Positions 24,496 through 47,198 of a stretch of 48,225 bases of DNA are shown here, piece after piece. How positions within the stretch are numbered: position 1 is the first letter of the stretch; each line of letters opens with the position of its first letter. The notes beneath the pieces are model-generated. The model searched no databases, was not told where the DNA came from, and was given only the letters and a program-made list of their open reading frames with translations. The position numbers and the translations under genes were made by a program. This DNA comes from a virus: IMG/VR virus record IMGVR_UViG_3300009149_000054, positions 1 through 48,225 of that record, one strand, 5' to 3'.

Positions 24496-25695
24496 TCATT
24501 GGCCAGAATATATTTCATGCTCTTTCCAATTCCTCCAGGCAGTACCAACACTGACTCGCACCGGAAACATAGGATTACTATCCAGCACTCCACTAAACGG
24601 ATGGCACATAATATCAGCCACTTGGTCGATAGTAGACTGCATAGACGCCTTCGTTCTATCGCACGTCACAACCATCGAGTCATGGACCTCGGCCAATAAT
24701 CTATCGCCAACCTCTTCCCAAACCCGCCTAATAGATATCTGTATTGCATGAGCAATAGAACCCTGCATCGTTGCGTTGAAGATACTAAGCGGCTTCTTTC
24801 CTTTTACAAGTACAAATTTCCTACCTAGTATGCTATATAATGGCTCACCAGCGTTTAGCTTCGTCCGTGAAGCAGCTATCCACTTTCGGAGTTTTGGAAA
24901 TAGGTCAAGGATGAGCAAGTCGGTATTCATCGAGTTGATCGCTTTGAGCAACGCTATCTTACATTCATTCCTCGTCACACCATTTGCTGCACCACCCTGA
25001 TTCAATCTGTCAGCTATTGTTTGATAGGGATCATACTTCTCAGATAAAGCAAGAAGCCTACTATCACCACACAACAAAGACGCAATCCTGATATCCGCAC
25101 CACGCCAATCAAAATGAATAAAAGCATCATCTGGTGTTCCAGCGGGGTTCGTAATTTGGTCTGCCTCTACCGTACCCTGCAAGTTATATACCATCGTCTT
25201 ACTTCTGCCGCTATATGTCCGTTGCGACCAAACTGGATATTGTGGTACAGTACCAGCCATTATGCCGCGATTCTCTAGACTCTGATACACAACAGCAGCG
25301 TTGGCAGAATATTGCTGCCATGGTTGCGGCTTCATCTTTGCCATCTTAGGCAGAAACTTCTTCAACAGCCGACTGGCTTTACTCAGAGAATTCGGCGGCT
25401 TTATTTGTGGCAGGAACAGATCATATACTTCCAGCTTTTCTTTGGCAATAGGAAAACCGAAAGCATATAAATAGTCCTTGAAATCTGATAGGACTAGTCT
25501 ATAGCCACGCACAAGCAGGCGTTCAAGCAGTAGAACAATTTTCGCCTTATCGTCGTCAATCTCAAATATGGACTTACCAGTACCTGGTATGTGCAGAGGA
25601 AAGATCCGAGTCTTGCTAGTTGATGGGTTATACAACCCTATGATAAGAGGCTTTCTATCCTTGTCGAACAGTGTATGAACATAAACCGACTTCAT
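24496..25695 (-). CDS. Small family A DNA polymerase-like protein
   Basis: 399 codons from ATG 25695 (a GTG six bases earlier is also possible). The palm is recognisable: motif A FIHFDWRGADIRIASLLCGD (catalytic D, with 'DYSQIELR' changed to DWRGADIRI) and motif C LLAEVHDSMVV (HDE changed to HDS). FNATMQGSIAHAIQISI matches the helix before motif C. Motif B keeps R and K (RNECK) but lacks the following Tyr-Gly. The N-terminal 100 residues look like a decayed 3'-5' exonuclease fold. It may be a specialised or repair polymerase beside the pol III-type replicase. Compared with Pol I (928) and T7 (704) it is very short. Confidence 0.78.
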   Translation of the reverse strand: MKSVYVHTLFDKDRKPLIIGLYNPSTSKTRIFPLHIPGTGKSIFEIDDDKAKIVLLLERLLVRGYRLVLSDFKDYLYAFGFPIAKEKLEVYDLFLPQIKPPNSLSKASRLLKKFLPKMAKMKPQPWQQYSANAAVVYQSLENRGIMAGTVPQYPVWSQRTYSGRSKTMVYNLQGTVEADQITNPAGTPDDAFIHFDWRGADIRIASLLCGDSRLLALSEKYDPYQTIADRLNQGGAANGVTRNECKIALLKAINSMNTDLLILDLFPKLRKWIAASRTKLNAGEPLYSILGRKFVLVKGKKPLSIFNATMQGSIAHAIQISIRRVWEEVGDRLLAEVHDSMVVTCDRTKASMQSTIDQVADIMCHPFSGVLDSNPMFPVRVSVGTAWRNWKEHEIYSGQ

Positions 25696-25715
25696 TGTCA
25701 CTCACGGTGTTTTTA

Positions 25716-26605: not shown

Positions 26606-27742
26606 CTAGGTTGGTTCTGAGATTGTCATTGTGTTATAAAATACATTGGTTTCGATAGACTCAAACTTAGGACCGTTTCTATTCTTTGCTATCCACAGTC
26701 TAATAATTGACGGACCGGACTCTGGTCTATACTCACACTCACGCTGGTTCAAACTGATAACATAATCGACTGGCATCGCCTTACCAAAACTCTCAGCGGC
26801 CTTGTCAAGCCCCAAATGTCCCGGAGCAGTCTGCTGATCTCCATGTCTCACACCAGTTTCGAGACTAGATCTATTGCCCTGAGTCGCCGTGAAAATAAGT
26901 ACGTTCTCGTTTCTGGCCAGACCACGCAATTCTGTGGCAATAGCTTTTTGTCGAGTATAATCACCACGCTCATTGTCGTACTTACGTCTAGCCAACATCA
27001 ATTCTAGGTAATCTAGGACAACTACCTTCGGCTGCCATCCCTTCATCTTTCTGTTATTATCCATGATCGCATAAATATCATTGACGCTGCATTCATCCGG
27101 TGGCAACTCATAGATAACTAATTTAGCGTCATGCCGCTTGAACTTGAGGACTTTTTTCTTAACAGCCTTTTGGCGTATTCTGAGGTCGCTCAACTCACTC
27201 TGGTTCAATTCCTCAACATTTGGCCTGATGAATTTATTGAGTTCGGCATCCGCAATACTACTAACGAGCCTGAGGCCAGTCATCATTTTGGACAACTCAA
27301 ACGTGACAAACATCACGTCATGTCCCTGTTTCATAGCGGCTATGGTATTATTGCCAAGCATAAGACTATTATGACTCAGAATACCAGAAGTGTAGTACCA
27401 ATGCGGTGCTTGGATTTCTATATCGTAAAAATCAACGAGTGGGCCGTCAAACAGAACAAATGAAACTTCTGAGTCACCGTATCCCAATAACTTATCGTTC
27501 GATTTAAGATCTTTAACGCGCTTCGGCCCGTCTTTAGTCGCCAAAATATGACCAGGATCGCAAATCAATTCTTCGCCATTACTTAATTCAAGCCTGACAG
27601 ATTTGCCACGTTTTATCATATCAAATGCCAAAACACGCTGAAAGCCCATCGGAGTATAGACATGGGCTTCAGAACGAGTCTTTAAAGAACCAAACGTTAC
27701 GTGCTTGAATTCATTCGTCGGTGTTATCTTTTTGACTCGCAT
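26606..27742 (-). CDS. Replicative DnaB-type helicase, C-terminal piece, carrying C-terminal half of a split intein
   Basis: 378 codons. The first 125 are intein; the extein begins SLMLGNNTIAAMKQGHDVMF and supplies the Ser of Walker A. It continues with VVVLDYLELMLARRK (Walker B), IFTATQGNRSS (the H3/sensor 'Q.NR') and IAKNRNGP ('KnR.G'). This is the RecA-like motor of phage hexameric helicases (T4 gp41 type), which unwinds DNA ahead of the fork. Activity requires joining to the N-terminal piece encoded at 27785-28594, because the Walker A loop is shared between the two genes. 42 bp separate the ORFs. Confidence 0.9.
   Translation of the reverse strand: MRVKKITPTNEFKHVTFGSLKTRSEAHVYTPMGFQRVLAFDMIKRGKSVRLELSNGEELICDPGHILATKDGPKRVKDLKSNDKLLGYGDSEVSFVLFDGPLVDFYDIEIQAPHWYYTSGILSHNSLMLGNNTIAAMKQGHDVMFVTFELSKMMTGLRLVSSIADAELNKFIRPNVEELNQSELSDLRIRQKAVKKKVLKFKRHDAKLVIYELPPDECSVNDIYAIMDNNRKMKGWQPKVVVLDYLELMLARRKYDNERGDYTRQKAIATELRGLARNENVLIFTATQGNRSSLETGVRHGDQQTAPGHLGLDKAAESFGKAMPVDYVISLNQRECEYRPESGPSIIRLWIAKNRNGPKFESIETNVFYNTMTISEPT
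27368..27742 (-). mobile_element. Split intein, C-terminal half (DnaB-type helicase), atypically long
   Basis: 125 residues from the ATG to the Asn before Ser+1. It contains VYTPMGFQRVLAF, a block-B-like NGEELICDPGHILATKDG, block F VDFYDIEIQAPHWYYTSG and block G ILSHN. Canonical split inteins have a C half of about 35-40 residues. A long C half holding block B is the atypical layout known from the AceL-TerL/VidaL type, and the alignment with AceL-TerL by eye is good. The 27 residues before VYTP have no intein motif. Confidence 0.82.
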
Positions 27743-27784
27743 ATTCTATTATTTTATCTAATGCAGTGCCTGTATCAAAAAATC

Positions 27785-28594
27785 TTACAAGTGTAAGTCT
27801 CCGACATCTTGTATAACTGATATACTAGCAATATCATCGTCTTCGACAAGATCACAGATTTTAATTCTTCCACGTGATGTCTGTACTTCTCTAAATCCTG
27901 CAAGTTTGATAACCTGGCCATCGTCAAACTCCAATTCATAGATACGAGAGAGGTTTCTCTCTATTACCTTCGATTGAAGCGAATGACATTTACCAACATT
28001 CGTCGGTGCAAGCCATATAAGAACTTCAGATGGCGATGGTCCTCCATCGTTCAAAAACTTATCGAGTTTAGGAAAGCCGGTACTGATATGCTCTACCGCG
28101 TGATCGACAAATAACTCATCAAGCTGATCGAGAAGCCAGAATCCAGGTGTCCCAACTGACGCTATTCGCGTGGCGTCGTCGAATATCTTAGTCAAAAACT
28201 CATAGTCGCCCTGTTGGTGCGCCATAAGGGCTTCATCTGAGTAAAGCTGATCGTAGATCTTATATTCGGCCCATTGCCTGAGTGTCTTTCGTAGCATTGG
28301 GACTTCGCGCGGATTTGACTCACGCTTAACAATGCGCAAGATTTCCTCATAAGGATCTTCGACAGTTAGAGCTTTCGATAACCGGTCATATAACAACCCA
28401 CGTGTTGGTACTGTACCGTGGCTGTCGAAATCCTGCCAAATCGACGCTATGATATACTGGACTTCCGGTCGTGCAAATAGCTCTGGTTGCAGATATTTGG
28501 CAAGTGAAGCATATAACTCTGGAAAATCCAGAATTAACGAAACTACTGCTTCCTCTTCGTAATTGCCAAACGGGGTATCTTGATTGTCAGCCAT
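27785..28594 (-). CDS. Replicative DnaB-type helicase, N-terminal piece, carrying N-terminal half of a split intein
   Basis: 269 codons. Residues 1-202 cover the helical N-terminal domain (EEEAVVSLILDFPELYASL, start of the DnaB/gp41 N-domain), linker, and the motor up to VLIWLAPTNVGK, which is Walker A without its Ser/Thr. Intein sequence begins at Cys203 and runs to the stop. The start overlaps the stop of the upstream gene (TAATG-type). The piece alone cannot bind ATP. It lies directly upstream of the C-terminal piece, so both would be made from one mRNA. Confidence 0.9.
   Translation of the reverse strand: MADNQDTPFGNYEEEAVVSLILDFPELYASLAKYLQPELFARPEVQYIIASIWQDFDSHGTVPTRGLLYDRLSKALTVEDPYEEILRIVKRESNPREVPMLRKTLRQWAEYKIYDQLYSDEALMAHQQGDYEFLTKIFDDATRIASVGTPGFWLLDQLDELFVDHAVEHISTGFPKLDKFLNDGGPSPSEVLIWLAPTNVGKCHSLQSKVIERNLSRIYELEFDDGQVIKLAGFREVQTSRGRIKICDLVEDDDIASISVIQDVGDLHL
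27788..27988 (-). mobile_element. Split intein, N-terminal half (DnaB-type helicase)
   Basis: 67 residues from Cys after GK. It opens CHSLQSKVIERN and then has IYELEFDDGQVIKL / VQTSRGRIKICDLVEDDD. The second stretch looks like a block B region with its His lost (AGFREVQT where 'T..H....T' is expected). The N half is shorter than the canonical ~90-110 residues, and the C half has its own block B, so the pair carries two B-like segments. Confidence 0.78.
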
Positions 28595-28956: not shown

Positions 28957-30153
28957 TCATTCATCTGTGTCAATGAGTTCGTCTAGTATGACGTCGCTCT
29001 CGTCGCTCTCGTCGTCGTTTACGTTATCTTTTATATCTTTGGATTCATCCGATGGTTTCATTGGCGGCTCGTTCGACGGCTTGATCGCTGCATAGACAGC
29101 ATCAGTAACAGCAGAACGTAGATCATCATCTTTCCTAAGCTTGGCATATGCTGCTTCTTTGCCGTTCGCTATCTTTTTTCTGCCGAAATAATAATTACTA
29201 CCCTTAATCGTGATGATATCAAGCTCTTTTGCTGCCGGTACCAAGGTATCAGTTACGTCAATACCGTAAATCCTATCTGGATCTTGATACTTACTACCGA
29301 AATAAATCGAAAAAGTTGCACTCCTAAACGGTGGTGATACCTTACTTTTTACAATCTTCGCGGAAGCCTCGGCACCTATCGACCTTTCCTTGTGTTTGCC
29401 TGTTCCTTTTATGAGACCTTTTCTGCGTATCTCAATCCTAATAGATGAATAGAACTTCAGAGCCCTGCCGCCAGGAGTTGATTCTGGTTTTTTAAAACCC
29501 GCCGTAAAGCCACCAATAACATCCCGAAGTTGATTGATAAAGACTATAGCAGTATTAGTCTTCAACGCCTTACCGGCAAGCCTGCGCATTGCTTTAGACA
29601 TCAGACGTGCCTGAGCACCAATATTATAATCTTCAACCTCACCTTCAAGCTCTTCTTTTGGAACGAGTGCAGCAACAGAATCAATGACAATGAGATCTAT
29701 GATGCTATGACTAATCATGATATCAATCATCTTAATGGCATCGTCACCACTGTCTGGTTGCGACAAAAGAAGTTTGGTAATATCGACGCCTTGATGTTCA
29801 GCCCACGTAAGGTCGAGCGCGTGCTCAGCATCAATAAACGCAACGATACCGCCTTTCCGCTGGCAGCTAGCTATTGTTTTTAGGCTGAACGTTGTCTTGC
29901 CGCTCGACTCATTACCGTACACCTCAATTATCCTACCTCTAGGCAAACCGCCTACACCAAGCGCAAGATCGACGTTTGCCATACCTGTCGGCACAACACC
30001 GACGTCCACAAAAATACCACTGCCATACTGGACCGAACCAGTACCAAACTCTCTCTCGAGTTCCGCTATAGCAGCATCTAGTGGATCAAGTTCCGGATTT
30101 TCTTGATCCTCTTTCCTTCTCTTCGCCCTTTTTACTGATTTTTTTTCTGCCAT
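28957..30153 (-). CDS. recA: RecA recombinase (bacterial type)
   Basis: 398 codons. Walker A GNESSGKT at 80-87; IVAFIDAEHALD; Walker B LIVIDSVAALVPKEELEGE; loop L1 near YNIGAQARLMSKAMR; loop L2 AIVFINQLRDVIGG then PGGRALKFYSSIRIEIRR; C-terminal domain with GIDVTDTLVPAAKELDII. These are full bacterial RecA features rather than UvsX. The protein forms ssDNA filaments for strand exchange and recombination-dependent replication. The last 40 residues are acidic, as in RecA. The N-terminal extension of about 30 basic residues is unusual. The recA start lies inside the preceding ORF (68-base overlap). Confidence 0.96.
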   Translation of the reverse strand: MAEKKSVKRAKRRKEDQENPELDPLDAAIAELEREFGTGSVQYGSGIFVDVGVVPTGMANVDLALGVGGLPRGRIIEVYGNESSGKTTFSLKTIASCQRKGGIVAFIDAEHALDLTWAEHQGVDITKLLLSQPDSGDDAIKMIDIMISHSIIDLIVIDSVAALVPKEELEGEVEDYNIGAQARLMSKAMRRLAGKALKTNTAIVFINQLRDVIGGFTAGFKKPESTPGGRALKFYSSIRIEIRRKGLIKGTGKHKERSIGAEASAKIVKSKVSPPFRSATFSIYFGSKYQDPDRIYGIDVTDTLVPAAKELDIITIKGSNYYFGRKKIANGKEAAYAKLRKDDDLRSAVTDAVYAAIKPSNEPPMKPSDESKDIKDNVNDDESDESDVILDELIDTDE

Positions 30154-35374: not shown

Positions 35375-36282
35375 TCTTTGGTAGTGGATTGGTCGGGCTC
35401 ATCGCCAAAAAAATGCTTGGTGACAACTGGACTGTCATACCTTTCAGTAGGTCACGTTTCTTCAGCTTTCGTCCCGCACTGAATGATAACTTCCTGATCC
35501 ATGATGAGAGAACAGATGACTTCGTTGGCCACTTGGGCGGGAAATTAAGCTTTATCTATAAAGTCCTCTATTCGCTCAATGGAGGACTGTTCGAGTATCA
35601 AAACACGCTCAGCGATACGTGGTTAGCAAAAGTCTTCGGTACCGACATACCGCCACACTCGGACGCCTATCTTTCACAACGCAAAAACTTCTTTGTATAT
35701 GACTTGAAGCTAAACGCACTATACGAGTCTCTTCAAAAAGAATATTTAGGGTACCTTATTGACCAAAGCAAAATGGGGAAAGTCACAGAGATAGGCGACC
35801 ATTATGCAATGGTCGGCAATCAAAGAATCGAATTCGACAAGGCAGTAAGCACAATACCACTCAATTTATTGTGCCAACTATCAAAACAGAACAGATGTCA
35901 GTTGCCGTCACAACAGATTTGGTACTTCCATATCGAAACCAAAGACCTCGACTTCGAGGGTGCTAATCAGGTTCTTGTTGTGGACCCTGAGTTCGACTTC
36001 TTCAAGGTAGCAAATATCGCCAATAATAGATATCTGTTTTATTGCAAGTCAGATATTCAGATGCCTGGTGCCTACTTCATGCAGTTTATGCGGAAATTCG
36101 ATTTGCTAGATGGTACCACAATAGAAAGCGCGATACCGAAAGGACCTACCCCAAAACTAGATGCCTTCGAAAAAATGGGCATCTACTGTGTCGGTAACAA
36201 CGCACAATGGGATTGGTGCATGGACATCAGTAGCTGCATCCTTAGGCTTCTAAAAATAAAGCCTAACCTAGTCAGCGTCTAG
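35362..36282 (+). CDS. FAD-binding oxidoreductase-like protein (amine oxidase / UDP-galactopyranose mutase-like)
   Basis: 306 codons. The N-terminal VIFGSGLVGLIAKKML is a GxGxxG Rossmann dinucleotide-binding loop. The C-terminal GIYCVGNNAQWDWCMDISSCI resembles the second flavin contact ('vGR.a.W.y..mdd.i') found in amine-oxidase and UDP-galactopyranose mutase families. Intermediate strands (FDKAVSTIPLNLLCQL, with the 'D.vi.tiPl..l' pattern) also fit. It could act on a nucleotide sugar, in line with the glycosylation genes, or on another substrate. The last 15 bases overlap the convergent replicase gene. Confidence 0.66.
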   Translation: MRGVIFGSGLVGLIAKKMLGDNWTVIPFSRSRFFSFRPALNDNFLIHDERTDDFVGHLGGKLSFIYKVLYSLNGGLFEYQNTLSDTWLAKVFGTDIPPHSDAYLSQRKNFFVYDLKLNALYESLQKEYLGYLIDQSKMGKVTEIGDHYAMVGNQRIEFDKAVSTIPLNLLCQLSKQNRCQLPSQQIWYFHIETKDLDFEGANQVLVVDPEFDFFKVANIANNRYLFYCKSDIQMPGAYFMQFMRKFDLLDGTTIESAIPKGPTPKLDAFEKMGIYCVGNNAQWDWCMDISSCILRLLKIKPNLVSV

Positions 36283-37560
36283 ATCACCTTCTCTGAATTT
36301 CTCCCAGCCCTTCTTGGACCAGAGCTTGCTAAGTAGCGTCCCACGCTGAAGAGTGAACGAACCGCGATCTTCATCGTAGTTGACTCTAAGACGAACACCC
36401 GTATCAGTATCAAATGTGTCGCCAGGTTGAGCCCGTATCGCGTCTTCCCACAAGATGACGAGACATTCTTGATGACCGTCAGTGATAATGAGTTTGAGCA
36501 TAGGACGATCATTTCTCGTCTTGCCTTCAAACTTCTTAGTTATAACACCCTCGAGCCTACCAGTTAGCTTGGCGTGCTCAATATCTGCGTCGGGTGATAT
36601 GTTGTATAAATCACACGGCGAATGCCAATGATAGCCTAAAAATTCCTTTTCAAATTCAAGTATCTCTGTAAGCTCGTAATCGTCATCATATAGAGACATT
36701 ACTCGCTCAGCAGTATCGTTTGGATTGGGCTGCCAGTTTACTACTTTTTTTGGTATATTCTTCCTCTTCGGATAGAGCTTCTTATATTCATCTACCTGCC
36801 TTTTACGCTCTGCCTCAATAGATTCTTTGCTCCACCCATCTCTTTGTAACAACAAAATGCGGTGGTGCTCTTTTAGCTGCGTTATAAGAATCTTCTCGGA
36901 TGGGTCTGTATACTTATTTTCGACAAAGTTTCCGTTTTCGTTTCGCTTCATCAGAGGATCGGTACCAGTCTCTCTAACACGAACTATACGGCCGGTGCAA
37001 TATTTGTGCAGGTACCACCTCCAAGTGGCTTTGATGTTTTGATGAATATTCTTGAACGCCCCTAATTTTATAAGCCGTTCCAACAGCACTTTGTGTTTGC
37101 CCTTTTCCTTAACAAAATCGTCAATCGAATCGTGATCGTGTGTTGCATCATCTGCGTCGGCAAATTCAGTCGACAGGCTATCACCAACATTCTTCAGGCT
37201 GATTAAACCAAGAGCAACATGTGGATGGTCACCGGTCTGATTGGTCCCAGCGTGGGCAACAGGTCTAATCGTTAATCTATTAATATCGACTTCACCAAAT
37301 CTAATGCCCTCTGCCCTGGCAGCACTCATGTATCGTTCCAGCTTATCCTGATTACAATTACCCAGAACGCTGGCCCACCACTCCTCTGGATAGTGTGCTT
37401 TTAGCCACAAACACCTATATGCCCACAAACAGTACGATACAGCATGGGAGTTTCTGTGTACAGCACCAGACTGAGCGGTAATATAATTATGCTGCGTACT
37501 GGCCATCTCTGGAGAGTATGTATCTACAACCCCAATATGTCTGGCTTTTTTAATCTTCAT
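36268..37560 (-). CDS. DNA polymerase III alpha-type replicase, piece 3 (C-terminal), with C-terminal half of a split intein
   Basis: 430 codons; residues 1-37 are intein. The extein opens SHAVSYCLWAYRCLWLKAHYP, matching bacterial PolC/DnaE 'FNKSHA.aY....y.taylKahyP'. It continues with the C-terminal alpha pattern: GIRFGEVDINRLT, ALGLISLKNVGDS, FVKEKGKHKVLLERLIKLGA (helix-hairpin-helix type), and a C-terminal OB-fold from about residue 330 (AKLTGRLEGVITKKFEGKTR ... LKLIITDGHQECLVILW). This part contacts the template and other replisome proteins. It must be joined to piece 2 (38982-40967) by trans-splicing. Confidence 0.9.
   Translation of the reverse strand: MKIKKARHIGVVDTYSPEMASTQHNYITAQSGAVHRNSHAVSYCLWAYRCLWLKAHYPEEWWASVLGNCNQDKLERYMSAARAEGIRFGEVDINRLTIRPVAHAGTNQTGDHPHVALGLISLKNVGDSLSTEFADADDATHDHDSIDDFVKEKGKHKVLLERLIKLGAFKNIHQNIKATWRWYLHKYCTGRIVRVRETGTDPLMKRNENGNFVENKYTDPSEKILITQLKEHHRILLLQRDGWSKESIEAERKRQVDEYKKLYPKRKNIPKKVVNWQPNPNDTAERVMSLYDDDYELTEILEFEKEFLGYHWHSPCDLYNISPDADIEHAKLTGRLEGVITKKFEGKTRNDRPMLKLIITDGHQECLVILWEDAIRAQPGDTFDTDTGVRLRVNYDEDRGSFTLQRGTLLSKLWSKKGWEKFREGDLDAD
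37450..37560 (-). mobile_element. Split intein, C-terminal half (replicase)
   Basis: 37 residues, a canonical length: MKIKKARHIGVVDTYSPEMA then HNYITAQSGAVHRN before Ser+1. Block F (VVDTYSPE...HNYIT) is clear. The usual penultimate His is replaced by Arg (HRN), which may slow Asn cyclisation. Confidence 0.85.
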
Positions 37561-39049
37561 TGAAGTATTTTATCATTCTGTGGTGTCCGGCATCCCATAT
37601 CCTTCTATATCCATTCAAAAACATGTTCTCGGATTCTGTTTTGGATTGATCGAACTTAGTCAACACACCTGCTAGTTTGTGCTTTTGAAACTTAAGTCGA
37701 CTATAATATCTGTTGTTCCTCCAATACATATAACCGGGTTTCGTAATGCCGCAATGAAAAAAACCACAAGAAGTATAGCCACGCGCGAGATGTGAATACC
37801 TTCTGTCAGCGTAAGATAATAATCGCTCGATGCCAAGTTCTCGCGCCGCATTGCATATTAGCTTAGATAAACCACCAATAACAGTATGGCCAATAACATT
37901 GGCGAACCTAATCAATTCGTGTCCGCACCCATTTTTTGATATCGATATTGCAGCGACTATTACATTGTCGCACACGAGACCGTAATGAAATGACGCATTT
38001 CTATTACCACAAAGGTGGTTGATATTAAAAAAATGCCTCGCCTCATCAGATGACAGAACAACCATCTTGCACCGTCTAGCGTAAATCCTCTCCGACAACC
38101 CCAGCCTACTTTGTATCATTGATTTTACAATGTCCGCACGCATATTCCACTCATTGTCAAGTACCTGCAAAAGAACGATATTGTTGTCTTCGGCGGCAGA
38201 TGCTTTGTTGTGGTGCTTCTTGCGTTGTGCAGTAGTTTCAAGTCTGTCAAAAGAATGCCAAAAACCTCCATTGTACTCTATGGCAATTCTTTTCGCAGGA
38301 ACATAAATGTCCAATTCTAAACCAGAAAGAACAGATCTGTCATTATCAATAACATCAAAACCAAGGCTATACAACCAGGTCTTTATTTCAAGTTGTGGTC
38401 TTGATATGTCTTCCCGACAATTTGGACACCCATTAGCATAATGAACATGATGACTTGGTCTCTGACTAAATTGGCCGTGCTTTGAACATATAATGATCAC
38501 CTTGGTTTTAGAGTTAACATAATTGACGAGACTATAATCGTACTTGTTACCATGTACTTTATTCGACGCCTCTATAAAATCATCTAGACTCAGGAGTCTT
38601 GATTCTCTATACTTTTTATCGTCCCAATATGATTTCCTGGCTTTTTTAACTTTAGCCACATAACTGTCGTCTCTAAATTTCTTTGCTATTGACTCAGAAA
38701 CTTTTAATTTAAACTCAGAAGATTTGGATAAATTGGCATGGTTGACTCGCATTTTAGCGCGATAATCATCGTTTCGCCATAATTTTTTCGATCTTTCAGA
38801 CGAACCGTATGTAATCTTAGATTTGGCCAATATAGACCTGGCTCTACACTCTTCAATATATTTAGGATGATTTCTAAAACATTTCGGACATAAATAGAAA
38901 CCAGAGTATCTCAGGTGTGTATTTGTCGCATTTATGACGCATTTAAACGTTTTACAATCCACGGTCCCGCATTGTCCACACTTAACACGAACTATATCTC
39001 TCACTTTCGGTTGTTTTTCCTGTCCGACAAGACCAAATATTGGCGACAT
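37550..39049 (-). CDS. Free-standing Vsr-like homing endonuclease lying between the replicase split-intein genes
   Basis: About 499 codons from ATG 39049 (AAGGA upstream); the frame stays open to an ATG at 39094. Its 5' end lies inside the N-intein ORF and its last bases overlap the C-intein ORF. Order: zinc finger (VKCGQCG ... FYLCPKC); NUMOD-like repeats (LWRNDDYRAKM, KFRDDSYVAKV, YWDDKKYRES); one DUF723-like unit (HGNKYDYSLVNYVN ... ICSKHGQFSQRP ... CPNC); Vsr-like nuclease with LELDIYVPAKRIAIEYNGGF; C-terminal GNAT-like domain (HELIRFANVIGHTVIGGLSK, LLSYADRRYSH, TKPGYMYW). An endonuclease gene between intein halves is the published 'fractured gene' layout, where it presumably mobilises the whole insertion. 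Confidence 0.85.
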   Translation of the reverse strand: MSPIFGLVGQEKQPKVRDIVRVKCGQCGTVDCKTFKCVINATNTHLRYSGFYLCPKCFRNHPKYIEECRARSILAKSKITYGSSERSKKLWRNDDYRAKMRVNHANLSKSSEFKLKVSESIAKKFRDDSYVAKVKKARKSYWDDKKYRESRLLSLDDFIEASNKVHGNKYDYSLVNYVNSKTKVIIICSKHGQFSQRPSHHVHYANGCPNCREDISRPQLEIKTWLYSLGFDVIDNDRSVLSGLELDIYVPAKRIAIEYNGGFWHSFDRLETTAQRKKHHNKASAAEDNNIVLLQVLDNEWNMRADIVKSMIQSRLGLSERIYARRCKMVVLSSDEARHFFNINHLCGNRNASFHYGLVCDNVIVAAISISKNGCGHELIRFANVIGHTVIGGLSKLICNAARELGIERLLSYADRRYSHLARGYTSCGFFHCGITKPGYMYWRNNRYYSRLKFQKHKLAGVLTKFDQSKTESENMFLNGYRRIWDAGHHRMIKYFNED

Positions 39050-40967
39050 CCAATCCTTCGTCGATAATTTCCTTAACCTCATGGTATCGCCCATCTTCGC
39101 ACAAAAACTGGTGGGTTAATGTAACAGTTTCAAAAGTACCATCGTCAAACTCAATTTCGTAAACGTCCAAAGGACCATTATTGTGAATCCGAATACATTC
39201 GTCAACAACCACATTGCCACCTTCATCGACAGAATTAATATAAAAACCGCCAAATTCATACCACTCTTCTATGGTTTTTCTATCACCAGTTAGAGCATCC
39301 TCTATTATTGTATCTTTGCTGAGACATTTATTGAAAGCATATCGGCCGAACGTCTCCATCCTGTCATCCCACCACTCGGTAGCAACAGCTTCGCCAAGAA
39401 ACCTGCTGGCACCATCGATCCATCGTTGCCGTACCGGCTTTAGCTGGTCCTTCCATTTCTTGGCCACAGCCTTACGAGCATGTTGTGATTCAGGGCCGGT
39501 AAACCCAGCAATCCGCTGCCACAACTCTGTCAACTGCTCCTGGTAGACAATGACACCGTGAGTACTACCAAGTATATCGATAATCTGCTCGTCTTCATTG
39601 TCTCGCCACGACTGTGTTGGGTCGTCGCGGCGTTCAACATATTCTGGTATCATAGCCATAGGGCCTGGGTGCCCCATCGCATTGAAAATTAGTAAATCCC
39701 AGAAACTGCGTACGCCATTAGATAGAATGCGCTTCGCTAGATCAGTATCAAATTGGAAGACAGCGTCCGTTTTTTGTGCATTGGCTAGTTCCAAAGCCTT
39801 CTTATCATGCAGCGGTATCCTGTACTTCTTACCGTTCTTCCAGTAAACACCGGCCTGTTCTTTCTCAGGGTCGAGCTCCTCAAGACCCTCAAGCACATCA
39901 CCAAATGATATGCCGTGATTGGTCTCAATCATCTTGCAACATTCATAGATATATTGCAGATTCTTAAGGCCAAGTATGTCCCATTTATTATAACCAAACT
40001 TCGATAATTGTGTGCTCCTGCCCTCTGTCCAAGTACTAATCCATTGCTTGGAATCATTATTATATATCATTGGCACGTTGCCAAATAGACTCCTATCAGC
40101 TATAATAATTGCACCGGCATGCTTACCGGGATTTCTGATGCAGCCCACGAGCCTAGAAGCCACTTGGATGACCTTCTTGTGGCCTTCTCGCTCCTCTAAA
40201 AACTCCCTAAGCTCCTTATAATCTTTAATCAATCGTGCAAGAGTGGGTGTTTCTGTGTCCTCCGATCCGCATGACGGGCAGGTAATTTTATTATGCTTCG
40301 TGCCACATTCTTTCTCTACCCCATCGTCAACAACTTTGCCCTTACATATACCATAACCGCCTTCCTTCATCTCGTTAACATCGTCCGGCAGATTAGTTGT
40401 AAGATCAATTGCTTTATTGTAACGAATAGTGCCACCACCAGTATCACCATCTTGAGCAGCAAAACCGAGGGCTCTATAAGCATCTTGAATCGCGTTCTTG
40501 AATAGGTATGTGCTCCAAGTCCCGACACTAGCAACGTTATCGCTACCATACCGCTGGGATGCGTACTCTTTTATCTTGTCGCGAGCTTCAGGAAGGCAGT
40601 CGATATCGATGTCTGGCACATCAGCGTCGCGGATCATGTCGGATGGTAACTTACCACTCTGTTCAATAATTTTCGCGATAGCGGCATGATTAGAAGTTGT
40701 TGTCAGCGGGTCCGTACGATTCTCGATAGGATCTACGTCCGCTTTGCCGGACAACCTACCTAACAGCCATGGCAATAAAAGATGGTTCTTGTTTGAATCG
40801 AACTTCTTGCCAGAAATTACAATATCCGCCCAATATCTGTTGGCACCCTGCTTCTCTACCTCATTCAACTCATACTCCAGCCTCTTTTCATATATGCCAT
40901 TCAACTTCCTCTTCTTCAGAGAATCGCGCGCTGTCTCCTTAATGAGATCCCAGGTAATCTCTTTCAT
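38982..40967 (-). CDS. DNA polymerase III alpha-type replicase, piece 2 (catalytic), with N-terminal half of a split intein
   Basis: 661 codons. VPDIDIDCLPEARDKIKEYA carries the catalytic pair of Asp ('PDFDIDF'), SVGTWSTYLFKNAIQDAYRAL follows as in DnaE, RNPGKHAGAIIIA matches 'rn.g.HaaGvvi', and YNKWDILGLKNLQYI supplies the third Asp ('.kfDfLGL..L'). GVIVYQEQLTELWQRIAGFT matches 'vYQEQvm..a..iaGf..'. A cysteine cluster (ICKGKVV ... CGTKHNKITCPSCG) is inserted. The first ~100 residues include YEKRLEYELNEVEKQGANRY, which echoes the end of the PHP region in piece 1. The extein ends GRYAFNK; intein follows from Cys. Start overlaps the upstream stop (ATGA). Confidence 0.92.
   Translation of the reverse strand: MKEITWDLIKETARDSLKKRKLNGIYEKRLEYELNEVEKQGANRYWADIVISGKKFDSNKNHLLLPWLLGRLSGKADVDPIENRTDPLTTTSNHAAIAKIIEQSGKLPSDMIRDADVPDIDIDCLPEARDKIKEYASQRYGSDNVASVGTWSTYLFKNAIQDAYRALGFAAQDGDTGGGTIRYNKAIDLTTNLPDDVNEMKEGGYGICKGKVVDDGVEKECGTKHNKITCPSCGSEDTETPTLARLIKDYKELREFLEEREGHKKVIQVASRLVGCIRNPGKHAGAIIIADRSLFGNVPMIYNNDSKQWISTWTEGRSTQLSKFGYNKWDILGLKNLQYIYECCKMIETNHGISFGDVLEGLEELDPEKEQAGVYWKNGKKYRIPLHDKKALELANAQKTDAVFQFDTDLAKRILSNGVRSFWDLLIFNAMGHPGPMAMIPEYVERRDDPTQSWRDNEDEQIIDILGSTHGVIVYQEQLTELWQRIAGFTGPESQHARKAVAKKWKDQLKPVRQRWIDGASRFLGEAVATEWWDDRMETFGRYAFNKCLSKDTIIEDALTGDRKTIEEWYEFGGFYINSVDEGGNVVVDECIRIHNNGPLDVYEIEFDDGTFETVTLTHQFLCEDGRYHEVKEIIDEGLDVANIWSCRTGKTTESERYSSC
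38985..39326 (-). mobile_element. Split intein, N-terminal half (replicase)
   Basis: 114 residues from Cys after FNK. Block A CLSKDTIIEDALTGDRKTIE, block B DVYEIEFDDGTFETVTLTHQ then FLCEDGRYHEV. Length and motifs are canonical. The last ~38 residues are polar and Ser-rich. The matching C half lies 1.4 kb downstream in the transcript, beyond the endonuclease gene. Confidence 0.88.
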
Positions 40968-41431
40968 ACAGTCACTCTAGTCCCAGTATCACTGGCTTTT
41001 TGGGTGTCGGCACATTCCTTGGCAAGATTTAGGCACCTAGTAAGATCCTCCTTGCTAGCAGCTACTGCTCGTAGGTTATCAAAATACGATACCCACAATC
41101 TGAGTTCGGCGACTTCGTCGGGATTCTTTTTGGGCGACGATTTGTAATTACCATCCTCGACAGTCTCCAGCAGACCAGCAATATACTGTGGAACATGGAG
41201 TACGACTTCGCAACTCTTCCTAAATTTTTTGCGCGATATCGACATAAGACCATAGGTAGCCGCCATGATTTCGGCACGTGGCTTTGTGGAGCCACCAACC
41301 GGTTGACAAATCACCCTATCAGCAGTTCTGTCGTAGTCGTCGCTATAATCCAACAGAACAGCACATCCAGCACGCTGATCTGGTTTACCGTTGTTGAAAC
41401 AATAACCGGCGCAAGTCATACTTATTTTCAT
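40964..41431 (-). CDS. RNase H-fold protein, probably catalytically inactive
   Basis: 155 codons, ATGA overlaps on both sides. The pattern CAGYCFNNGKPDQRAGCAVLL, then GGSTKPRAEIMAATYGLMSI, then SCEVVLHVPQYIAGLLE matches RNase HI ('D.G...N.....ag.a.v', 'TnnrAEl.A...aL', 'v.i.tDS.Yv'). However, the first Asp reads Ala (TCAG) and the 'TDS' Asp is absent (HVPQ), leaving only the Glu of RAE. It probably binds nucleic acid or serves as a scaffold rather than cutting RNA. It lies between two replicase pieces. Confidence 0.6.
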   Translation of the reverse strand: MKISMTCAGYCFNNGKPDQRAGCAVLLDYSDDYDRTADRVICQPVGGSTKPRAEIMAATYGLMSISRKKFRKSCEVVLHVPQYIAGLLETVEDGNYKSSPKKNPDEVAELRLWVSYFDNLRAVAASKEDLTRCLNLAKECADTQKASDTGTRVTV

Positions 41432-41826
41432 AGCTCGTTCCCTTCCAAATCGGTTATTGGTGGATAATCGACACCTGTTATGATCTTGAGTTCATGCAAC
41501 GCAATAGCAATACCACGCAAACACCGATATTTCTCGACCAAAGGCTCATCGTTATGGTGACACAATTCACTCTCTAAGTTCATACGAATGATCGATGCAT
41601 GCGGGTGAGCACCCTCTATGCAGTTAAGCCTCTCTATCAGTGCGTTCGCCGCCACGCGCACAACAATTAAAGCAATCTTGTCCATCTCGGGACCGGGGTC
41701 TTTCCCAACTAAAGCATCGTCGATGCAGTCAATAAGCTTTATAGATATTGCGCCTAGATCGGGCGTCGGGGTGCCAGATATAGATAGGTATACTAAGATT
41801 GAATGTTTTAATTCCGCCGTTCTCAT
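41428..41826 (-). CDS. Hypothetical helical protein in replicase locus
   Basis: 132 codons ending in an ATGA overlap with the RNase H-like gene. All-helical in appearance (GAISIKLIDCIDDALVG, MDKIALIVVRVAANALIERL, YRCLRGIAIALHELKII). It lies 7 bp after the stop of the homing endonuclease at 41834. No motif recognised. It may be a pre-existing replicase-operon gene displaced from piece 1 by the endonuclease. Confidence 0.68.
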   Translation of the reverse strand: MRTAELKHSILVYLSISGTPTPDLGAISIKLIDCIDDALVGKDPGPEMDKIALIVVRVAANALIERLNCIEGAHPHASIIRMNLESELCHHNDEPLVEKYRCLRGIAIALHELKIITGVDYPPITDLEGNEL

Positions 41827-41833
41827 TCCATAC

Positions 41834-43402
41834 TCACTTTAAATGCCGCACAAATTTGTGCCGAGGTTTAACTTTTATCTTAACCAAACCAAATCGTAAA
41901 GCATAATCGAACTCACTCATAGAATTTCGTTTGGCAGCGTCCCAAACAGTTTTTTTGTGAATACGAAAACCGTCTAAATCACGATATTCGTAATCCGACG
42001 ACCTCGTCGATCCAAGACACCTAAAACCAGACGCAACATAAATTGTGCCAATGTGTGTAGATGTATCAGAAAACGCAATTACAGCCAATCGATTATTGTT
42101 TTTAGCCCATCTACACAGACGTGATATTGTCCACGATGCTAGATTCTTTATCTGATATCTTGGATGAATAATAAATCGAGATATTTCTATAACATCAGGC
42201 GGATTATATCCGATCGAAGTAGCCACTTCCAATCTATGAACAGGCGACAAAATTGCCGCAGCTATCACCTCATTATCATGTCGCACAGCAAAATATCGCC
42301 CATCACGATTCGGTTTACCAAGATAGTGAAATGCTGAAAATAAACCTATAACGCAATCACGCACACACTGCTCAAACTGCAAATCATCAAAGCTAATTCT
42401 TTCTAACGGAGCCGATTTTTCAAATAACGACCTTAGTTTAAACTCGGCCAATAAATCCGACTCTTCGATCACCAATAATTTGTAATCCGTATGCCTATGA
42501 ACATAGGTACGTTTAGCTTTATCAAGACTTTTACGTCTATCGTGCCAATAAAGACCATTAACCTCAATCAACGTGTTAGAATCCTGCAGCAAATAGTCGA
42601 ATACCCACGGGCCAACGACGGCTTGACTCACATATTTTATATCATAAGCATCAAGAACATAACCAACAAGCCTCTCCCACTGACTAATCATACATCTGTT
42701 TGACCTAGCCAAAGCACATTTGCGTCTATAATCTTCATCTTGCCATTTCTCTGTAATAGTCTCGGACAACTTATCTCTATTTCCCCTTATACTCCAGTAA
42801 TCAAACGCCCTTTCAGACATCATGGCACGTAATTCTGGATTACTATATATTGAAACAAGTTTGGCGGTTATCCGTTCCCTGTAATCGCCCCGATCCCACA
42901 AACTGCGGGACTGCTCAGACATCATAATTCTATATTCAGCATCGTTCGCCCATTTGTCTTTCAAAATAACAGAAATGGCGCTTGTGGCCAACCCTCGATT
43001 AACGTCGAGATTCGAGCAAGCTTTTTCTCTATTGAAATTAGCAAAAAACTTTCTCTTATACTCTGGATCTTGCCATAGTTCTAGCGCTCGCTGCCTTGCC
43101 AATTCCTTCGTAGAGCTATTGTGTGTGCGGGACTCCTGTTTAGCTCTATACTCCTTGTCTTGCCACTTTTTCTTTATAGCCTTTGATGATGTCTCCGACC
43201 TTAAATAATCGGCGCACTTCTTACAGCGGTAGAACCCATTCCGGCGCAAAGCCCTATAATGGTAATGCTTCGTGGCATGTTTCTCATTACCACAAATATC
43301 ACAAATTATAATAACTTTTTGATATTTAGATATTCTGTCAGATTCAGAAAAACCATAAACCTGTTCTGTACGATACCAATCAATCATAGCGTATTTTTGC
43401 AT
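41834..43402 (-). CDS. Free-standing Vsr-like homing endonuclease with Mom-like C-terminal domain, at replicase break 1
   Basis: 522 codons. N-terminal zinc finger (C34-x2-C37 ... C60-x2-C63); seven NUMOD-like 'W.D.eYr.k' repeats between residues 75 and 230 (KKWQDKEYRAK, LWQDPEYKRK, KWANDAEYR, LWDRGDYRER, others); Vsr-like nuclease with VFD269 and LIEVNGLYWH, E280; GNAT/Mom-like domain with ISRFIIHPRYQIKNLASW and FSDTSTHIGTIYVASGF. Same architecture class as the gene at 7486-8988. It starts 13 bp after the stop of replicase piece 1. No intein half is visible on either side of this break. Confidence 0.85.
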   Translation of the reverse strand: MQKYAMIDWYRTEQVYGFSESDRISKYQKVIIICDICGNEKHATKHYHYRALRRNGFYRCKKCADYLRSETSSKAIKKKWQDKEYRAKQESRTHNSSTKELARQRALELWQDPEYKRKFFANFNREKACSNLDVNRGLATSAISVILKDKWANDAEYRIMMSEQSRSLWDRGDYRERITAKLVSIYSNPELRAMMSERAFDYWSIRGNRDKLSETITEKWQDEDYRRKCALARSNRCMISQWERLVGYVLDAYDIKYVSQAVVGPWVFDYLLQDSNTLIEVNGLYWHDRRKSLDKAKRTYVHRHTDYKLLVIEESDLLAEFKLRSLFEKSAPLERISFDDLQFEQCVRDCVIGLFSAFHYLGKPNRDGRYFAVRHDNEVIAAAILSPVHRLEVATSIGYNPPDVIEISRFIIHPRYQIKNLASWTISRLCRWAKNNNRLAVIAFSDTSTHIGTIYVASGFRCLGSTRSSDYEYRDLDGFRIHKKTVWDAAKRNSMSEFDYALRFGLVKIKVKPRHKFVRHLK

Positions 43403-43415
43403 TCATTATATGGAC

Positions 43416-45368
43416 CTACTCCATGCTCACTTTCAGCATATAGCCACCGCGAGACGACGCCATAAACCGGTCAAACGACAAACCCCATTTCAGCGGATCA
43501 ATACAATGGATACCAAGCAAAAAACAGACTAACGAACCACCAGCAGAATTGGAACTGAAAACCCCATTTAATCTATAAGTGTTCGTGACGCTAACCTGCA
43601 GGTCGTATACCTTACCGACATGTTGCCTTCTCGACATTCTTTTTATCCTTAGTCTCTCTACGGAACTTGCTGAGACCAACTTCTGCAATTCGCTGATGTT
43701 TTGGATCTGTGAAGGCAACAACTGCTTCATCGTATATCTGCCCGCGTATTCCAGATCAGTCTGCATTCTACTTTCATCGGCACGGATGTCTCCTTGGTCC
43801 GAGAGGTTACCAATGATCTCGTCAGCATCTATGATCTCGGATGCTCGAAGAAGCATCACTATCTCGCCTCTGATAATATAGAGCTTGTGGTCGCCAGTCA
43901 CTTCTATGATTCGATCATCCAACTCGAAAATATATAACTCCTCCGCTATGTCATAAACAAACTTGTTTTCGACGGTTCTGTCATTACCAAATCCGTCTAT
44001 AATTGAATCACCAATCTGGATATCCTCAATTGCTTTCAGTTCAGAACCAGAGATATTAATCAATGCGCCAGATGTTGTACACCCACGAGGTCCGAAAGGC
44101 CAGCCCCTACGCCTACCGTATTGAATTAGATCTTGCGTAATCAGAAAGTAGCTGGCAAATCCTTTGCTGATAAACCGCTCAAGCTCTATAGCAGTCTGCT
44201 CGATATAAGTGACCTCACGGCCATCAACCGGATATCTCTTCTTCACTTTATGAAGTTTTCGCTTGACAAGTTCGTCACGAGCAATTCTCCTCAATTCCTT
44301 ACCGGCATCCATACCTGGCTCAACAGATGCCCAATCAGGGATCTTTGGGCTAACATCTGGCGTAAAAACATCGCAACGTTCAGCGATTTCAAGTGTTGTA
44401 TCGCATATTTCAGCAAATCTCTGCTCACTAACCCTGGCAGAATATTTATTATTGACAAATGTGGCCCACAAATCTGCTCTTGTCTTGAAGAATTGCTCGT
44501 CGCTGTTGGACGCAAACAAATTCGGGTCATCAACCGTAACCTTCTGATCCACCGCCATCATGACACATTGCAGATAAAAATCGTCTCTCGTCAGATAGTG
44601 TGAGTCATTCGTCAACACAGCTTTTATGTTAAGTTTGTCAGCAAGTTGCAGTATGGTCCAGAAAATCTTATGGTCGTGCAAATCCGGCAAAAGCGGCATC
44701 TGGACTTCCAAAACAAAATCGTCGCCGAACTCTTTTTGGAACATCTTGGCATATTGAATAGCAGTCTTGTCACGACCTTTTACCCTCTCATGCCGTTTAC
44801 CTGTTTCCTCGAAGCTTTGGAAATCAAGATATAGTTCGTGCGAAACAGGGCCATTCCAGCAGCCAGACAAGATAATCAGGCCCTCTTTATACTCGCACAG
44901 CTTATCAAACCACACCCTAGGCTTGTAAAAAAAACCAAACTTATACGCAAGCGTAGAAAGTTTGATAAGATTGTGAAATCCAATTTCGTTTTTCGCAAGA
45001 ACAGTCAGATGCCTATTACGCATAATACGTCTATGCAAATTAAGATCGTCTTCCTTAAGCTGCATCATCTTACCTTGCTCGGCAACAAACTTCTGGCGAA
45101 TAGGCTCGTAATCATTGTAGTAAAGCTCGCAACCCGAAATAAATTTTAGACCGCGCTTCTTGAATGCGAAATGCATATCCGGTACAGATGCCATGTTGCC
45201 GTGCTCTGTTGCCGACATACCTACATAACTGCGCTTTTCACACTCCTCAGCGTATTGTTCAGGTGTGGCCACTCCATCAAGCGGCGAGAAGACGGTATGG
45301 CAATGAAGATGCACAAATTCGGTAGGACCGTTGAATTGTGAAGGCAAAGATAAATTAGAATTACTCAT
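43416..45368 (-). CDS. DNA polymerase III alpha-type replicase, piece 1 (PHP domain), containing a complete mini-intein
   Basis: 650 codons from ATG 45368 (MSNSNLSLPSQFN); the frame extends to 45479 inside the divergent endonuclease gene. EFVHLHCHTVFSPLDGVATP is the PHP-domain opening of DnaE, with SATEHGNMASV and FISGCELYYND following. Later SKGFASYFLITQDLIQYGRR then GPRG leads to the intein; the extein resumes SAGGSLVCFLLGIHCIDPLK and LSFDRFMASSRGGYML, i.e. the 'GPGRGSAAGSLV..LLgIt..DPl...llFeRFl' block. The ORF then stops (KVSME), before the catalytic PDIDID, which is in piece 2. Confidence 0.92.
   Translation of the reverse strand: MSNSNLSLPSQFNGPTEFVHLHCHTVFSPLDGVATPEQYAEECEKRSYVGMSATEHGNMASVPDMHFAFKKRGLKFISGCELYYNDYEPIRQKFVAEQGKMMQLKEDDLNLHRRIMRNRHLTVLAKNEIGFHNLIKLSTLAYKFGFFYKPRVWFDKLCEYKEGLIILSGCWNGPVSHELYLDFQSFEETGKRHERVKGRDKTAIQYAKMFQKEFGDDFVLEVQMPLLPDLHDHKIFWTILQLADKLNIKAVLTNDSHYLTRDDFYLQCVMMAVDQKVTVDDPNLFASNSDEQFFKTRADLWATFVNNKYSARVSEQRFAEICDTTLEIAERCDVFTPDVSPKIPDWASVEPGMDAGKELRRIARDELVKRKLHKVKKRYPVDGREVTYIEQTAIELERFISKGFASYFLITQDLIQYGRRRGWPFGPRGCTTSGALINISGSELKAIEDIQIGDSIIDGFGNDRTVENKFVYDIAEELYIFELDDRIIEVTGDHKLYIIRGEIVMLLRASEIIDADEIIGNLSDQGDIRADESRMQTDLEYAGRYTMKQLLPSQIQNISELQKLVSASSVERLRIKRMSRRQHVGKVYDLQVSVTNTYRLNGVFSSNSAGGSLVCFLLGIHCIDPLKWGLSFDRFMASSRGGYMLKVSME
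43548..44081 (-). mobile_element. Mini-intein in replicase piece 1
   Basis: 178 residues from Cys after GPRG to Asn before SAGGS. Block A CTTSGALINISGSELKAIED, block B IIEVTGDHKLYIIRG, block F VGKVYDLQVSVTNTYRLNG, block G VFSSN. No endonuclease domain. The penultimate residue is Ser instead of His, so splicing efficiency is uncertain. Confidence 0.9.
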
Positions 45369-45377
45369 AGGTATATC

Positions 45378-47198
45378 ATGAGGCGAAAAACACAAGACGA
45401 AGTAATCAACGAATTTAAAAATACACACGGCTCTCGCTACGATTATAGTAACGTTATTTACAAAAACGCATATACACACGTTAAAATTATCTGCCGTCTA
45501 CACGGTCCGTTCAAGCAACAACCTAGGGCACACAAAAATGGACAAGGATGTCCAAAATGTACACAATCAAATAAATGGGTGCCATATAGGGACACTGCCA
45601 GCTTCATAAAAAGAGCCAAAGAAGTACATGGTGACCAGTACGACTATTCGAACACCGAATATATAAAGACGATGGAGAAAGTTACTATTACATGCAAAAT
45701 ACATGGTCCATTTCAGCAATTGGCCAATAGTCATCTCAACGGGCGCGGATGTAGACAATGCGCCAACAATCAACGTAAAACAACAGAATTATTTATAAAA
45801 CAGGCGCAGATCGTGCATTGTGACAGGTATGATTACTCATGTGTTGAGTACGTATCTGCTGCAAATAGAGTTATCATAATATGTAGAAAACACGGAGCGT
45901 TCGAACAAAAACCAAGTTGCCATTTATCTGGACAAGGATGCCCGAAATGTGGTATAGACAGTATGAGAACACGACTGTCAAAACCTGAAAGAGACTTTAT
46001 AAAAGAATGTGCTATAATTCACAATAAGAAATATGACTACACGAACACAAGATATCGGGGTAGGTCATCGTTAATAACTATAATCTGCCCAATACACGGC
46101 GAATTTGAGCAACGTGCGTCGGAACATTTGCGAGGATATGGATGTCCACAATGCGCCGGAAATCAACCATTATCAACCGACGAGTTTATATATAAAGCTA
46201 AAAATGTTCACGGTAATAGATATAATTATCCAGGTTTAATCTATACCAGATCAAAAGATGTTGTAGAGGTTGAATGCCAACAGCATGGGCGCTTCAAAAT
46301 TGTTGCGGGATACCATTTACATGGCGGCGGATGTCCAATCTGCACTATTTCAACCGACCAAAATTCAATAGCCGAATTTGTGTCGAGCTTAGTGAATGTT
46401 GAAATAAATAACAGAGCAGTAATACATCCATATGAACTTGATATATTCGTTCCACAGAAACTATTTGCTGTTGAATTTAACGGCAACTATTGGCACTCAT
46501 ATAACACAACAGAATCGAGCTACGAGCGCAATAGACATAAAATCAAAGCCGACTTAGCACAGAAGTCAGGAATCAAACTACTTCAAATAAATTCTCATGA
46601 GTGGCACGCTAAAAAACCAATAGTCCAATCAATGATTAGACATCAATTACAATTATCAAACAACAGATTGTACGCTAGAAATTGTGACATCATTAGAGTA
46701 AACAACTCTGAAGTTTCAACATTCTTTGGTCTAAATCACATATCTGGGCACCGCCAGGCTAAAATAAACTACGGGCTATATCACGATGGCAAATTAACAT
46801 CGGCCATAAACTTCATTAAAAATAACGATACTTGGGAAATTATCAGATATGCAACGTTGTTAAACACTGTTGTCGTTGGAGGATTGGGAAAATTAATGGC
46901 GAAATTTATCCGCGATGAGAGGCCGGAAACCATCACAACTTTTGCAGACAATAGATATGGTGATGGTGCCGCATATTTAAAGGTTGGATTTAAAAAACTA
47001 GTAACGACAAAACCAGGATATATCTACCTAGATAGTAACTGCAATCCTGCCGGGTCTAGAGTAAAATTTCAAAAGCACAAACTTGAAAAACTACTAACCT
47101 TTTTCGACTCGAAGCTTACCGAAGCCGAAAACATGTTTGCAAATGGTTATAGAAGAATGTGGGACGCTGGTCACAAAATGTTTGTTTTAAAGTTATGA
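45378..47198 (+). CDS. Free-standing Vsr-like homing endonuclease with five DUF723-like zinc repeats
   Basis: 606 codons on the opposite strand to the replicase, starting 9 bp from the piece 1 start. Five repeats of about 63 residues occupy 1-320, each with 'F.....hG.rYDYs.v.Y......v.I.C..HG.F.q....H..G.GCp.C' (for example HGSRYDYSNVIY ... ICRLHGPFKQQP ... CPKC). A Vsr-like nuclease follows (YELDIFVPQKLFAVEFNGNY), then a GNAT-like domain (WEIIRYATLLNTVVVGGLGK, TTFADNRYGDGAAY, TKPGYIYL) and the C-terminal TEAENMFANGYRRMWDAGHK, nearly identical in pattern to the endonuclease at 37550. The zinc repeats probably bind DNA along the target. It separates the replicase from its upstream operon gene. 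Confidence 0.85.
   Translation: MRRKTQDEVINEFKNTHGSRYDYSNVIYKNAYTHVKIICRLHGPFKQQPRAHKNGQGCPKCTQSNKWVPYRDTASFIKRAKEVHGDQYDYSNTEYIKTMEKVTITCKIHGPFQQLANSHLNGRGCRQCANNQRKTTELFIKQAQIVHCDRYDYSCVEYVSAANRVIIICRKHGAFEQKPSCHLSGQGCPKCGIDSMRTRLSKPERDFIKECAIIHNKKYDYTNTRYRGRSSLITIICPIHGEFEQRASEHLRGYGCPQCAGNQPLSTDEFIYKAKNVHGNRYNYPGLIYTRSKDVVEVECQQHGRFKIVAGYHLHGGGCPICTISTDQNSIAEFVSSLVNVEINNRAVIHPYELDIFVPQKLFAVEFNGNYWHSYNTTESSYERNRHKIKADLAQKSGIKLLQINSHEWHAKKPIVQSMIRHQLQLSNNRLYARNCDIIRVNNSEVSTFFGLNHISGHRQAKINYGLYHDGKLTSAINFIKNNDTWEIIRYATLLNTVVVGGLGKLMAKFIRDERPETITTFADNRYGDGAAYLKVGFKKLVTTKPGYIYLDSNCNPAGSRVKFQKHKLEKLLTFFDSKLTEAENMFANGYRRMWDAGHKMFVLKL

Follow-up and report, generated by a model that had tools for sequence, protein, structure and literature searches.

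The DNA analysed here (the window) is the whole 48,225-base IMG/VR virus record IMGVR_UViG_3300009149_000054. It encodes a DnaB-like replicative helicase in two genes, both on the minus strand, that are separated at a split intein. The N gene (28594..27785, 269 amino acids) comprises 202 helicase residues ending in APTNVGK, followed by 67 intein residues that start with a cysteine (Cys1). The C gene (27742..26606, 378 amino acids) begins with 125 intein residues ending in YYTSGILSHN and continues into the helicase at Ser+1 (SLMLG...). Joining the two exteins yields APTNVGKSLMLG, with an intact Walker A motif, APTNVGKS, and a continuous GKS occupies the matching point in the intein-less DnaB homologues L018 and L025, which represent empty sites. 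The two genes thus jointly encode one intein and one host protein, as defines a split intein, and the same holds for two related loci, L026 and L002. The stop of the N gene and the start of the C gene share a frame and are separated by four in-frame stop codons. A frameshift or sequencing error in a contiguous intein was considered and excluded, given those four stops across the window gap and the recurrence of the split elsewhere, where the gap holds 88 bases or an endonuclease gene.

An earlier note on this DNA had described a break within Walker A (APTNVGK^C and SHN^SLMLG, recreating GKS), a 125-residue C half with its own block B, and a 67-residue N half with a second, His-less B-like stretch. 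These observations are borne out. The sizes and boundaries are as described, the C half carries CDPGH at residues 61-65, and the B-like stretch of the N half is LAGFREVQT (residues 29-37), which lacks the His.

The layout, which the same note had suggested looking for in other phages, recurs in two further lineages and is thus found in three. L026 is a 256.5-kb contig in which the genes lie 88 bases apart and the N and C halves are 60% and 50% identical to those of the window. The L002 group consists of near-identical contigs (L002, L017 and others) with identities of 48% and 44%, and its break holds an open reading frame (ORF) for a 349-amino-acid DUF559/Vsr-like endonuclease (DUF559, E 7.7e-8); such a free endonuclease gene, the mark of a gene fractured along with a homing endonuclease (Dassa type), is absent from the break in the window and in L026. 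The L002 endonuclease gave no significant match to the UvsW or VidaL endonucleases (best E 0.095), and the donor was not traced by this comparison. All class-1 intein residues are present in the window (Cys1, CDPGH, DFYDIEIQAPHWYYT, SHN and Ser+1), and Cys1, the block-B His, the block-F D/H, the block-G HN and Ser+1 are kept in all three lineages. Identities to the window (L026/L002) are 46%/45% for the N-extein, 63%/56% for residues 13-55 of the N-intein (IntN), 52%/47% for the body of the C-intein (IntC) and 46%/47% for the C-extein. Among the longer segments, conservation is thus highest in the unusual stretch of the N half. L002 and L017 do not differ at all in the N-intein, against 13 silent changes and one replacement in the N-extein. 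A scan of genome contigs returned a single match, 35% identical over N-half residues 11-56, in a Leuconostoc contig. The intein part of a match in Vibrio phage 2.275.O was judged to be chance; that phage has an annotated, uninterrupted DnaB-like helicase of normal length.

Table 1 Features of the split helicase locus, in window coordinates.
Feature	Positions	Strand	Basis
N-extein, DnaB-like helicase N part, 202 amino acids	27989..28594	-	phrog_19 DnaB-like replicative helicase, E 2.4e-13
Intein N half, 67 amino acids, Cys1	27788..27988	-	Conserved in L026 (60%) and L002 (48%)
N-half residues 1-13, CHSLQSKVIERNL, putative minimal IntN (first strand/hairpin arm)	27950..27988	-	Elimination and comparison with VidaL CLPKEAVVQIRLTKKG
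N-half residues 14-56, canonical N2-type (block-B) lobe	27821..27949	-	hhalign, shuffle Z, conservation
N-half residues 30-33, AGFR, with A..R at the block-B T..H positions of all three lineages	27890..27901	-	Ungapped register with S16 UvsW T70/H73
N-half residues 46-67, acidic tail, 7 D/E, 0 K/R	27788..27853	-	Charge count
N-gene stop codon and 42-base spacer	27743..27787	-	In frame with C gene; in-frame TAA/TAG/TAA/TAG
Intein C half, 125 amino acids	27368..27742	-	PF14890 Intein_splicing 1.7e-5; TIGR01443 intein_Cterm
C-half residues 1-8, MRVKKITP, basic strand like the start of a canonical split C-intein	27719..27742	-	Start-score matrix
C-half residues 9-125, body of an atypical (S1-type) C-intein, running from shortly ahead of V.F..L through residue 125	27368..27718	-	
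C-half block B, CDPGH, residues 61-65, catalytic His65	27548..27562	-	
C-half block F, DFYDIEIQAPHWYYT	27389..27433	-	
C-half block G, SGILSHN, then Ser+1	27368..27388	-	
C-extein, helicase C part from S of GKS, with stop codon	26606..27367	-	PF03796 DnaB_C 2.4e-10; PHROG

The two intein halves

Profile comparison of the C half with the PDB gave matches to gp41-1 (7.6e-7), VidaL (1.9e-5) and CatC (2.1e-5), and the C half also matches phage TerL inteins; its PF14890 match (1.7e-5) lies below the curated cut-off. A V.F..L segment in the C half is the counterpart of the stretch that follows the first hairpin in VidaL (VTVQELRE) and in contiguous TerL inteins. This placement implies that the Hint core of the C half begins at an S1-type position, after strand 2, which is the split position used by VidaL and PolB16 (PMC13014065). 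As in S1-type C halves, the Hint domain is covered from about helix 1 onward, block B included.

The two halves were modelled together, a check proposed in the earlier note, by running AlphaFold2 (AF2) on a read-through fusion. The predicted local distance difference test (pLDDT) score was 51 with 5 alignment rows and 59 with 11; the C half of the model was usable and the N half was not. The C half adopts a Hint fold (pLDDT about 74-88 over fusion residues 111 to 190), and Foldseek matched it with a probability of 1.00 to many inteins, including VidaL at a root-mean-square deviation of 2.9 A over 100 columns. Profile and predicted fold place the C half among the atypical (VidaL/TerL-like) C-inteins, and it retains all of the C-side catalytic residues.

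The affinities of the N half lie elsewhere. Alignment with hhalign to canonical phage N-inteins (T4-like UvsW and others) places residues 14-59 onto their positions 51-96 (97.6%, E 4.6e-12). A tblastn search of 2.3 Gb with the N half retrieved, besides other inteins, the split N-inteins of UvsW from S16-like phages (E 2e-4), and its matches to inteins always fall on their block-B region. Against the S16 and L030 UvsW N-inteins the lobe gave shuffle Z scores of 12-21 (lowest single value 12.5), and Lak UvsW and GXN1 gave 14-16; with the block B of the C halves themselves, the scores stayed at 0-6. In an ungapped register with S16 UvsW, 16-19 of 39 residues are identical, and T70 and H73 of S16 correspond to A30 and R33, a replacement that is invariant in all three lineages. 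A direct PDB search with the N half found no intein (best value 0.035, an unrelated demethylase), so that its kinship becomes visible only by comparison with phage N-inteins. Self-duplication of the C half's own block B was excluded as the origin of the lobe (hhalign E 0.068 over 9 columns, besides the low Z scores just given).

The second B segment is therefore not an ordinary strand, the outcome that would have spoken against the earlier note; it belongs to a whole N2-type lobe from which the catalytic T and H have been lost. By homology, residues 14-59 are a canonical N2 lobe, predicted to be catalytically blank and not an active block B, and by the same comparisons the lobe does not share the ancestry of the remaining intein parts. 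Recurrence of the layout, together with the hhalign result, places the original observation beyond chance.

The segments on either side of the break also have counterparts in canonical split inteins. The C halves of the three lineages start with MRVKKITP, MKIKSINK and MKIRSIKP, and UvsW-type canonical split C-inteins start with MRLKSIKE, MKIKAMRI, MKIKSIKK and MKIKNIRV. A score matrix built on five canonical starts was run against 320 other ORF starts. L026 and L002 scored above everything, and the window was exceeded by a single background start, MKIKKARHIG, which itself opens the C half of a DnaE intein that is split canonically and lies in the same window; the C halves of VidaL and SCTP-2 scored low. 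The ratio of acidic to basic residues in the N-half tail is 7:0 in the window, 8:1 in L026 and 12:1 in L002, and in the first ten C-half residues it is 0:3 in all three. Association of canonical split inteins begins with oppositely charged disordered regions (PMC11923092; also PMC11766414), which in Npu DnaE were mapped to IntC and, within IntN, to the N2 lobe (PMC11923092). The charge pattern of the N tail and the C start fits this mode of capture, and the two segments look like the partners that meet in a canonical split intein.

Proposed assembly and its alternatives

At the level of sequence, a chimeric origin of this intein, part canonical and part atypical split intein, is well supported. 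The earlier note had left the choice between a chimera and a new split position. The first stands, as the C half groups with VidaL, CatC and phage TerL inteins and the N lobe with canonical split N-inteins. The second is not needed, since the core split, judged from C-half homology, is at a known S1-like site and the actual break lies at the canonical point inside the nested lobe.

With somewhat more confidence than doubt, we favour a trans-splicing class-1 (Cys1/Ser+1) natural chimera that has an atypical body and, nested within its first hairpin, a canonical capture pair. The C half would hold almost all of the Hint domain, and the N half would provide Cys1 and the first strand, presumably about 13 residues. 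The nested pair would sit at the S1 site, with the acidic N2-type lobe on the N half and the basic first strand on the C half, and the gene would be broken within the pair, at the point where canonical inteins are split. Capture between the acidic lobe and the basic strand may then hold the short Cys1 segment beside the C half, whose Hint fold that segment would complete. Ordinary class-1 splicing by His65, the block F and G residues and Asn125 would follow and produce APTNVGK-SLMLG. The narrower proposal, in which the split intein is modular and its ultra-short catalytic N segment is brought in by a docking pair of its own, made of a dead N2 lobe and a canonical IntC strand, is tentative, and our confidence in it falls a little short of even. 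Splicing itself, docking by the nested pair and the sufficiency of about 13 N residues are what we infer from the residues and homologies described above.

Several observations weigh against the nested chimera. The match at the start of the C half spans six residues only, and it counts as one evolutionary event because the three lineages are homologous. Residues 1-13 of the N half, the weakest link of the proposed mechanism, fit the first-strand pattern C-x-x-x-x-[ST]-x-[VIM] by eye, yet a profile of contiguous atypical inteins scores them no higher than shuffled sequences. Fusion residues 1-14 and 33-81 fall below pLDDT 50 in the AF2 model, which supports neither the placement of Cys1 nor the docking of the lobe, and a contiguous version of the chimera was not found.

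An ordinary S1-type (VidaL-like) split intein whose N tail is a functionless fossil of recombination with a canonical intein gene is, in our judgement, an unlikely explanation. The C half alone is indeed a complete S1-type C-intein and the tail has lost its catalytic T and H. A fossil would nevertheless hardly be expected to be the best conserved of the longer segments over three lineages (63%/56%), nor does it agree with the conservation, side by side, of the acidic N tail and the basic C-half start.

It is also quite unlikely that the N half is a canonical N-intein that lost its first (A, N1) lobe, with Cys1 joined directly to an N2 lobe that replaces the first lobe in the Hint core. The pseudo-two-fold symmetry of the Hint fold would permit such a substitution, at the same low probability. 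In a MAFFT alignment with canonical N-inteins one gap separates Cys1 from the B lobe, and the lobe's VQT.RG..K..DL resembles the V.T..G.I.I.DL arm of AceL-type N pieces, both in favour of this reading. However, the C half already contains the rest of the first lobe (the V.F..L helix and the V.TP.GF strand) and a complete second lobe with its His, so that a further lobe from the N half would be redundant, and the possible first strand of the lobe lies about 35 residues from Cys1. A decayed, non-splicing relic, with the helicase working as two subunits or not at all, would suit the unusual N half but is very improbable, as Cys1, the block-B His, the block-F D/H, the block-G HN and Ser+1 are intact in three lineages and a break inside Walker A would leave the unspliced helicase without a P-loop.

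If the docking-pair proposal is correct, no earlier split intein, as far as was found, would have a docking domain that is dedicated to this role and catalytically blank. In the natural atypical split inteins known so far, the N piece is bare and 15-37 residues long (PMC13014065), and fragment affinity has been linked to splicing rate, several short-N inteins being slower or of low affinity (PMC11766414). Literature searches, which covered openly readable papers and do not prove absence, turned up no account of a split intein that carries a further lobe without catalytic function. Here an atypical intein seems to have acquired, by natural grafting, the parts with which the halves of canonical split inteins capture each other electrostatically, so nature may combine docking and splicing parts from different inteins. 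Docking and catalysis would then be separable modules. This would provide a blueprint for split inteins that are fast although their catalytic tags are very short, and it would suggest how a split-intein gene break can arise inside an invading fragment.

Other inteins and polymerases in the window and its relatives

The phage DnaE polymerase gene of the window (36268-45479, minus strand) is fractured into three genes. The first (45479..43416) contains a contiguous intein (CTTSG...FSSN), the second (40967..38982) has a canonical split N-intein at its end (CLSKDTII...), and the third (37560..36268) begins with the C-intein MKIKKARHIG...HRN noted above. Each of the gaps has a large endonuclease-like ORF (43402..41834 and 39094..37550). 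The intein that is contiguous in the window (43416-45479; compared with L049) is split in the L002 genome, where an endonuclease-like ORF separates the two halves; the same DnaE intein thus occurs split and unsplit in related phages. The first DnaE break (window 43416-43430 / 40967) reads ..SSRGGYMLKVSME stop / MKEITWDLIK..PDIDIDCL, with no intein on either side, and Rfam showed no intron there. DnaE may be a true two-subunit protein at this break, and the L002 genome seems to break DnaE at a similar place. A 606-amino-acid ORF (45378-47198, plus strand) with several zinc-knuckle-like repeats (C..HG.F.Q..H..G.GC..C) and a nuclease-like core (EFNGNYWHS) resembles the free-standing ORFs of the DnaE gaps.

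RecA is free of inteins in the window (28957-30153). The relatives L002 (3451-5673) and L026 (2859-5024) carry a RecA intein with a large endonuclease-like insert at an identical site, ..GVMFG|CLHAD. The window also encodes a very short family-A-like DNA polymerase (24496-25701, 401 amino acids) with motif-like HFDWRGADIRIAS and LAEVHDSMVV, in addition to the DnaE-type polymerase.

Comparison with known split inteins

The helicase intein shares its host gene class with gp41-1, an intein of a phage DnaB-type helicase and the best PDB match of the C half (7.6e-7). The latter consists of an IntN of 88 and an IntC of 37 residues. In contrast to the intein described here, gp41-1 is split at the canonical position and has no second block-B lobe. 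The contiguous TerL inteins of phages (Vibrio phages Kuja and VP-1, Serratia phage 3M and Campylobacter phage CPt10) belong to the same family as the C half, and several are likewise inserted in the P-loop, but they are single chains with no nested lobe.

The S2-type inteins AceL-TerL, GOS-TerL and Cat (PDB 6dsl) resemble the helicase intein in their short-N/long-C layout and in carrying block B in the C half. They break after helix 1, however, whereas here the C half itself holds the helix-1 segment (V.F..L), and their IntN of 25-37 amino acids, with no extra lobe, differs from the 67 found here.

Among S1-type inteins a close comparison is with VidaL of UvsX (PDB 6vgv). Both have Cys1, a long IntC with nearly the whole Hint domain and the block-B His, and insertion in a P-loop, besides the profile (E 1.9e-5) and fold matches of the C half, and the VidaL copy in L064 has an endonuclease-like ORF in its break, as does the L002 group. 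IntN of the S1 type (VidaL, PolB16) comprises about 15-16 amino acids and ends after strand 2 (PMC13014065). That of VidaL ends at 16, whereas the 67-residue IntN of the helicase intein extends into an additional N2-type lobe, and the VidaL IntC lacks the basic lead strand of about 8 amino acids. L068 (2019-2438) encodes a contiguous relative of the split VidaL UvsX intein, 57% identical, an unsplit reference for the S1 type.

A canonically split intein has the A and B lobes in its N half and a C half of 35-50 amino acids with blocks F and G only. Neither half of the helicase intein has this composition, and no A lobe was aligned in the N half by hhalign against canonical phage N-inteins. The T4-like UvsW split inteins (Salmonella phage S16, Proteus phage PM2 and Lak phages) nevertheless share with it the N2/block-B lobe and the MKIKSI-type start of the C half and, with the L002 group, a further ORF in the break, but differ in their full A lobe, their C halves of about 37 amino acids and their intact block-B T and H.
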